Assembly (NCBI GenBank): GCA_023159155.1
Contig: JAJNNX010000001.1
Span: 1,984,001 to 2,048,000 of the forward strand
DNA: 64,000 nucleotides
From: Ustulina deusta
Taxonomy: Eukaryota; Ascomycota; Sordariomycetes; Xylariales; Xylariaceae
Direction of reading: 5' to 3'
In this document: positions 26,308 through 26,451 of the stretch, piece after piece
Layout: each line of letters starts with the position of its first letter
Numbering within the stretch: the stretch's first letter is position 1
Program-made: the position numbers and the translations under genes
The notes under the pieces: generated by a model
What the model saw: the letters and a program-made list of their open reading frames with translations, nothing else
What the model was told of the DNA's origin: nothing
Databases searched by the model: none

Positions 26308-26316
26308 AAAAAAAAA
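26308..26316 (-). terminator. Pol III T-run after tRNA
   Basis: Nine consecutive T on the minus strand, starting three bases past the tRNA 3' end at 26320. This is the normal RNA polymerase III stop signal. Confidence 0.7.
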
Positions 26317-26319
26317 TAT

Positions 26320-26451
26320 CTCCCCGGGAAAGGCTCGAACTTTCAACCTCCTGATTAACAGTCACTAGAATATTGTTAGAACACTAGGTATATCACCTAC
26401 GTTTATTTAAGGTATAACTTACGACGCGCTAGCCAATTGCGCCACCGAGGA
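26320..26451 (-). tRNA. tRNA-Asn(GUU) gene, interrupted
   Basis: Removing 26365-26422 leaves a 74-nt sequence with a full cloverleaf. The acceptor stem is TCCTCGG/CCGGGGA (one G-T), the D-stem GCGC/GCGC with loop AATTGGCTA, the anticodon stem TCTGA/TCAGG (one T-G) around loop CTGTTAA (anticodon GTT, Asn), the variable loop AGGTT, and the T-stem GAAAG/CTTTC with loop TTCGAGC. Internal promoters fit: A box TGGCGCAATTGG and B box AGTTCGAGCCT. A T9 terminator follows. Without the removal the anticodon stem cannot form: the 5' strand would be TCGTA, with two mismatches. The interruption lies between positions 28 and 29 in the anticodon stem, not at the usual 37/38 site of eukaryotic tRNA introns. 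It may be a functional gene with an unusual intron or an insertion-inactivated gene. Confidence 0.75.
26365..26422 (-). other. 58-bp spliceosomal-type intron inside the tRNA
   Basis: On the minus strand the insert begins GTAAGT and ends TTCTAG, with TTCTAAC (a consensus fungal branch site) 17 nt upstream of the acceptor. Length and all three signals match the mRNA introns in this window. By eye I find no good bulge-helix-bulge fold at the junctions, the signal needed by the tRNA splicing endonuclease. Function unknown. Confidence 0.65.

Follow-up and report, generated by a model that had tools for sequence, protein, structure and literature searches.

Can a nuclear tRNA gene that is split in its anticodon stem by an mRNA-type intron still provide a tRNA, and which machinery would remove the insert? 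In the textbook scheme, nuclear tRNA splicing is carried out by an endonuclease and a ligase and not by the spliceosome; canonical eukaryotic tRNA introns are located at 37/38 and are processed by the TSEN and Trl1 pathway. The window, i.e. the whole stretch of 64,000 nucleotides of Ustulina deusta DNA that was analysed, contains a tRNA-Asn(GTT) gene that does not fit this scheme (Table 1). An earlier note on this DNA had left three options for it: a tRNA processed by the spliceosome, an unusual endonuclease substrate or a gene killed by a mobile intron. The first one now appears the best supported. Judged from the sequences, this insert and its counterparts elsewhere in the genome are very probably U2-type spliceosomal introns of Pol III-transcribed nuclear tRNA genes, removed by the spliceosome.

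Table 1. Features of the interrupted tRNA-Asn(GTT) gene, L001, in positions of the window
Feature	Position	Strand	Remark
tRNA-Asn(GTT) 5' exon, ends at tRNA position 28	26423..26451	-	29 nt; same in L002
GT..AG intron at 28/29	26365..26422	-	58 nt; GTAAGT...CTAAC...TAG
tRNA-Asn(GTT) 3' exon	26320..26364	-	45 nt
Donor GTAAGT	26417..26422	-	kept in all four Asn copies
Branch-like CTAAC	26375..26379	-	branch A to intron end = 11 nt
Acceptor TAG	26365..26367	-	
Anticodon GTT	26357..26359	-	
A box TGGCGCAATTGG	26433..26444	-	by sequence
B box AGTTCGAGCCT	26331..26341	-	by sequence
T9 run, Pol III terminator-like	26308..26316	-	by sequence

The borders of the insert and its site at 28/29, as given in the earlier note, were correct, and the same boundaries recurred in all four copies of the gene. 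When the window gene was joined without the insert, ARAGORN returned tRNA-Asn(GTT) with a score of 117.4, in agreement with the 74-nt Asn(GTT) cloverleaf that had been claimed, and it drew the same 74-nt cloverleaf for the joined copies L002, L003 and L004. With its cloverleaf, A and B boxes and T run, the joined sequence has the appearance of a functional tRNA gene. We take the two boxes to be the internal Pol III promoter by consensus, and from these boxes together with the T runs we infer transcription by Pol III.

The unspliced window yielded no tRNA in a whole-window ARAGORN scan and none from Rfam at the gathering score. With introns allowed, ARAGORN read the unspliced Asn loci as tRNA-Val with an oversized arm, the anticodon being TAC in L004 and AAC in the other loci; in the window gene the supposed intron measured 40 nt. 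This implausible reading was taken as false in all four loci.

Four interrupted tRNA-Asn genes

Two proteins encoded in the window are 99 and 100 percent identical to U. deusta records, so that the DNA comes from this wood-decay fungus or a near relative (Xylariaceae, Xylariales, Sordariomycetes). In the genome that contains the window (56 Mb, 123 contigs) four tRNA-Asn(GTT) genes were found, L001 to L004, and all of them carried an insert of 49-58 nt at 28/29. DNA probes and pattern searches detected no uninterrupted tRNA-Asn gene in the genome. The earlier note had raised the existence of such an intact copy, and of further copies of the insert, as points to be checked. Used as a query, the interrupted gene with its insert (151 bases) gave four matches, all of them the Asn loci, and the eight matching pieces of the spliced 74-mer probe also lay in these four loci. 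The Asn anticodon-arm pattern GACTGTTAATC had 14 matches, four of them in tRNAs, which were again the Asn loci; a pattern combining anticodon loop and B box had 15, likewise with four in tRNAs. The 18 matches of the Asn D-arm pattern comprised the four Asn genes, eight places with other tRNAs or a tRNA piece, and six sites without a tRNA. Probes for tRNA-Gly and tRNA-Phe gave no matches although such genes are present. An empty DNA probe therefore proves little, and the count of four Asn genes, which could overlook a gene outside the assembly or one that combines a 37/38 intron with another D arm, rests mainly on the pattern searches. Outside this genome, the interrupted-Asn pattern had no match in viral_contigs or genome_contigs, and the interrupted-Lys pattern had none in viral_contigs.

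The four genes fell into two pairs. Their introns measured 58, 50, 50 and 49 nt (L001 to L004), started with GTAAGTT in every copy, ended with CTAG, ACAG, GCAG and GCAG, respectively, and contained the branch-like word CTAAC in three copies and CTTAC in L004. L003 and L004 both lie on contig C54, in opposite orientation and separated by about 3.6 kb. Exon differences were confined to the acceptor pair 6:67, which is G-C in L001 and L002 and C-G in L003 and L004; this compensating change argues for function in both subfamilies. The intron interiors were alike inside each pair (z 5.2 each) and at or close to shuffle level across the subfamilies (z 1.5, -0.5, 2.7 and -0.5). Upstream flanks behaved in the same way, with z 3.6 and 3.8 inside the pairs and at most 1.1 across them. 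Since paired copies share similar introns and upstream flanks, part of the Asn exon identity is recent. Exons that are nearly identical and differ by compensating acceptor-stem changes, together with intron interiors that have largely diverged between the subfamilies, fit functional, spliced genes.

Filled and empty sites in tRNA-Lys and tRNA-Ile genes

An Rfam tRNA search, with at least 58 matches among the 63 scored of 2280 first-look candidates, exposed long matches to tRNA-Lys(CTT). Three genes of this family were interrupted at 52/53, in the T stem, three were uninterrupted (L005-L007) and one was decayed (L102). The GT..AG inserts measured 55 nt in L101 (identical with L092), 63 nt in L100 (L093) and 64 nt in L099 (L098). 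The 73-nt exons of the interrupted genes are identical to those of L005-L007, and the B-box word GGTTCGACC remains intact, since the last G of the insert replaces G52. The intron interiors bore no mutual resemblance (z 0.9, -0.2 and -2.1). The three intact interrupted genes had CCTGATGCC in their 3' trailers, whereas the uninterrupted copies had CCCGATGC; the shared trailer suggests that the Lys insert was gained once, in a gene ancestral to the three, and that the copies have diverged for long since then. L102 (contig C29:551822-551874 and the sequence downstream of it) is interrupted as well, but it carries five changes in its exons, lacks the GT of the donor and is not followed by four consecutive T within roughly 80 nt. 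It constitutes a natural pseudogene contrast to the intact interrupted genes.

A D-arm pattern with 12 matches (six Lys(CTT), two Lys(TTT), one Tyr and three Ile) revealed the third family. At 28/29, the site that is also interrupted in the Asn genes, L198 carries a GT..AG insert of 54 nt and L199 one of 52 nt, each in addition to an anticodon-loop intron. L200 has the anticodon-loop intron only and is uninterrupted across 28/29. When compared to L200, the acceptor stems of L198 and L199 show a compensating change of 6:67 from C-G to G-C and a change of 4:69 to G-U; L198 has one further base change, in the variable loop. The interiors of their 28/29 inserts resembled each other no more than about shuffle level (z 1.1). 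ARAGORN named L198 and L200 Thr and L199 Lys, and as no tool called any of the three Ile, the identity Ile(AAT) is our own reading of the CTAATA loop. L198 and L199 lie about 1 kb apart on one strand (contig C37:808672-809861), and the two introns of each gene seem to belong to different splicing types.

Across all loci sampled, ARAGORN made 101 context-distinct tRNA calls. Nine of these were judged false (L001-L004 as Val, L009 as Ala, L023 as Arg, and L151, L162 and L173); when the two interrupted Ile genes are subtracted as well, about 90 uninterrupted tRNA genes remain, a sample smaller than the whole tRNA set of the genome. All eight Gly(GCC) genes were uninterrupted. The B-box pattern GGTTCGANTCC had 283 matches, versus 87 for a reversed control, and 95 loci among the first 100 listed were newly examined, the other five being already in the locus set. 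ARAGORN made a call over 12 of the 95, some of them doubtful. Excision of GT..AG segments produced a tRNA in eight loci of this sample, versus six to eight for four control dinucleotide pairs; being no better than the controls, it revealed no further interrupted case there. Of the 31 matches of the D-arm pattern TGGTNTAGNGGTNNNAT, six were already in the locus set and 25 were new. ARAGORN found tRNAs in 17 of 20 and 1 of 5 loci of this sample, all without an ectopic insert. Fifteen sampled loci that had received no tRNA call gave no tRNA after GT..AG excision, nor did they with three controls. The sixteenth such locus was L102, where excision from a GT near the lost donor resulted in a poor Lys (score 101.4). 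As far as sampled, ectopic inserts are confined to the Asn, Lys and Ile families.

Splice signals and the route of removal

All nine intact ectopic inserts, of 49-64 nt, can be read as GT..AG. Their donors were GTAAGT in four cases and GTGAGC, GTGAGT, GTTAGT, GTATGC and GTATGT in one case each, so that one deviates from a GTRNGT-like form by a T at position 3 and two by a final C. The best branch-like word was situated 10-13 nt from the 3' end in the nine inserts and read CTAAC in five and CTAAT, CTGAC, CTTAC and TTAAC in one each, with strict CTRAY in seven of nine (raw counts throughout); in L100, TTAAC was tied with a CTTAC 6 nt from the intron end. The inserts have, in short, the donor, the acceptor and the CTRAY-like branch word at a suitable distance that are typical of U2-type introns. 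Only one register is available for the Asn inserts, versus four to five for Lys and four for Ile, where the boundary slides by 3-4 nt and GT..AG is consequently one of four to five equivalent registers. The anticodon-loop introns of the same genome, 7-59 nt long, served as control: none of 46 could be read as GT..AG in any equivalent register. Calls from 11 loci where the gene was interrupted or the call false do not belong to this control set, nor do the duplicates L035-L071, and the bounds of three of its members (L090, L126 and L205) are doubtful because ARAGORN places the anticodon oddly.

Introns of mRNA genes were available from a copper ATPase gene in the window. Joining of open frames gave only three mRNA intron candidates; a set guided by the annotated U. 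deusta protein, with introns placed as GT..AG, was used instead. The three introns of this gene measure 63, 62 and 151 nt, have the donors GTAGGG, GTACGT and GTAAGT and show CTAAT or CTAAC words near their ends, at 8 or 18, 10 and 12 nt from the end, respectively. By these features, the mRNA introns of the window and the tRNA inserts look alike.

Tool scores contributed little to this picture. When all excisions of 20-100 nt were scanned with ARAGORN for seven genes, another product outscored the GT..AG product in five of them, often one of another isotype; for L100 and L101, ties came only from registers giving the same product. Since these scores do not discriminate, our argument is built on the common boundaries and on the empty sites. 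The four Asn copies have their boundaries in common, and the Lys and Ile inserts occur beside natural insert-free copies, which places the pattern beyond chance.

We infer removal by the spliceosome and the following order of steps. Pol III, directed by the internal A and B boxes, would transcribe pre-tRNA-Asn as far as the T run. GUAAGU, the CUAAC-like branch site and AG would then be recognised by the spliceosome, which would remove 49-58 nt and join position 28 to 29, whereupon the anticodon stem could form and normal tRNA maturation proceed. The same removal would take place at 52/53 in three of the six intact tRNA-Lys(CTT) genes and at 28/29 in two of the three tRNA-Ile(AAT) genes, where the endonuclease would also remove the anticodon-loop intron. 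Since the insert is present in all Asn(GTT) genes found, the reading of Asn codons would depend on its removal. We consider it likely that, in this fungal lineage, the spliceosome is obligatory for all cytosolic tRNA-Asn and for these portions of tRNA-Lys(CTT) and tRNA-Ile(AAT), that two splicing systems act on each doubly interrupted tRNA-Ile transcript, and that translation of Asn codons is tied to splicing capacity. A T4 run was present inside the introns of L002 and L100; such a run might cause some Pol III termination.

An alternative is that the inserts are substrates of a new kind for the tRNA endonuclease (TSEN), cleaved and ligated at a non-canonical position. Introns at such positions are indeed known from archaea, nucleomorphs and a red alga (PMC4090602, PMC9602550), and some of the Lys genes can form the pairs of a bulge-helix-bulge: four of four central, one of three outer and none of three inner pairs in L100 and L101, and, in another register, three of four central, three of three outer and one of three inner pairs in L099 (raw counts). 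No single register, however, serves the three Lys genes. At 28/29 of the Asn genes, none of the four central pairs could be formed in any of the four copies, and the Ile genes reached one or two of four. The bulge-helix-bulge is thus absent in Asn, poor in Ile and less clear in Lys. The four Asn precursors folded with ordinary energies (z -0.3 to -1.7) and without a shared structure by eye. The inserts are located at 28/29 and 52/53, whereas the canonical TSEN intron is found at 37/38. A TSEN substrate would moreover keep GT, AG and a branch word at near-constant distance for no reason, and the 46 anticodon-loop introns of the control do without GT..AG. The endonuclease option of the earlier note is weakened by the missing Asn bulge-helix-bulge, the conserved splice words and the Lys and Ile sites off 37/38. 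We regard it as very unlikely.

Highly improbable, too, is removal by some other RNA-processing activity, e.g. a hitherto undescribed excision factor, or by the spliceosome acting on a Pol II co-transcript rather than on a Pol III transcript, given that the U2-type signals suffice and that mRNA introns of this kind occur as well.

That the genes are pseudogenes, killed by a mobile intron-like insertion, is hardly credible: introner-like elements are known in fungi and the interrupted Lys copy L102 has decayed, but the searches found no other tRNA-Asn gene, the A and B boxes are retained, the exons remain nearly identical with compensating pairs while intron interiors no longer align between subfamilies, most upstream flanks are unalignable (z > 3 in 4 of 21 flank pairs), and the 151-base Asn query matched nothing beyond the four Asn loci. 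None of the nine intact loci showed the relaxed constraint seen in L102, and this option of the earlier note was abandoned. Group I or II introns are ruled out by the length of 49-64 nt, which is below their minimum sizes.

Spliceosomal removal is the most likely route since the conserved features are those that the spliceosome reads and since there is a precedent in the U6 gene of Schizosaccharomyces pombe.

Relation to known introns

In this precedent, an mRNA-type intron is present in a Pol III transcript and is removed from it (PMC10484740). As in the tRNA genes described here, a short intron of this type sits in a functionally essential part of a Pol III-made non-coding RNA. The S. pombe U6 RNA is, however, itself a part of the spliceosome, and its intron is thought to stem from reverse splicing, whereas the present inserts reside in tRNAs, and in three families of them.

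Introns also occur in other snRNA genes. Introners, or introner-like elements, are found in fungi and algae and would supply new GT..AG introns. Of the Asn insert, the 151-base query brought up no further copy in the genome, within the sensitivity of that search. The canonical 37/38 introns share with the inserts their location in nuclear tRNA genes and the need for removal, and both kinds coexist in this genome and even in the same Ile genes; the inserts differ by their sites at 28/29 or 52/53, by their GT..AG ends and by the branch-like word. Archaea, nucleomorphs and Cyanidioschyzon merolae likewise have introns at non-canonical positions, sometimes several per tRNA. Two reports describe the canonical 37/38 introns and ascribe these ectopic ones to the endonuclease (PMC4090602, PMC9602550). 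The archaeal and red-algal introns are described there with a bulge-helix-bulge and tRNA endonuclease, whereas this fold is missing in the Asn genes and the splice-site words are kept.

A 2026 review of non-canonical splicing, in its section on tRNAs, attributes tRNA splicing to protein enzymes and not to the spliceosome (PMC13149111). Our searches of the open-access literature brought up no account of tRNA genes with spliceosomal introns. The Podospora anserina genome paper lists 361 tRNA genes in 48 acceptor families (tRNAscan), by which each of the 61 codons is decoded; this is a hint that some Sordariomycetes lack the inserts. tRNAscan-SE 2.0 is described as searching for non-canonical introns in its archaeal mode, by means of bulge-helix-bulge models (PMC8450103).

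If spliceosomal removal is correct, two pathways held to be separate, mRNA splicing and tRNA splicing, would be joined, and Pol III transcripts besides U6 could be routine substrates of the spliceosome. Among Pol III RNAs, U6 is known to have an intron of the mRNA type; for tRNA biology the inserts would form a new intron class, and they suggest that the mRNA splicing machinery is also needed for essential tRNAs. The Lys and Ile families, where filled and empty copies adjoin, would offer a natural setting for intron gain, and fungal tRNA annotation could miss essential genes.

Several minor observations were made along with the census. The tRNA-Val calls that ARAGORN places over all four tRNA-Asn genes when introns are allowed constitute an annotation trap for fungal genomes. 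L151 (contig C32 near 319000) and L162 (contig C33 near 682700) share an element of about 120 nt that contains a B box and then a T run; it is conserved in blocks, has a variable middle and was called a poor tRNA-Gln by ARAGORN. It could not be fitted to a cloverleaf and had no Rfam match at E up to 1; it is perhaps another disrupted tRNA or a novel Pol III RNA. L206, together with L238 (contig C63 near 18200), corresponds to the 5' half of tRNA-Lys(TTT), with no 3' half within about 600 nt, and is probably a fragment of this tRNA. Finally, a trailer of about 45 nt, CAATTCC.GATGC...AGCA(A/G)C, is conserved downstream of the six intact tRNA-Lys(CTT) genes (L005-L007 and L099-L101), before the T runs. 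It holds a hairpin whose stem letters, by eye, vary largely in matching pairs, and it may represent a small RNA transcribed together with the tRNA, or a signal for processing.
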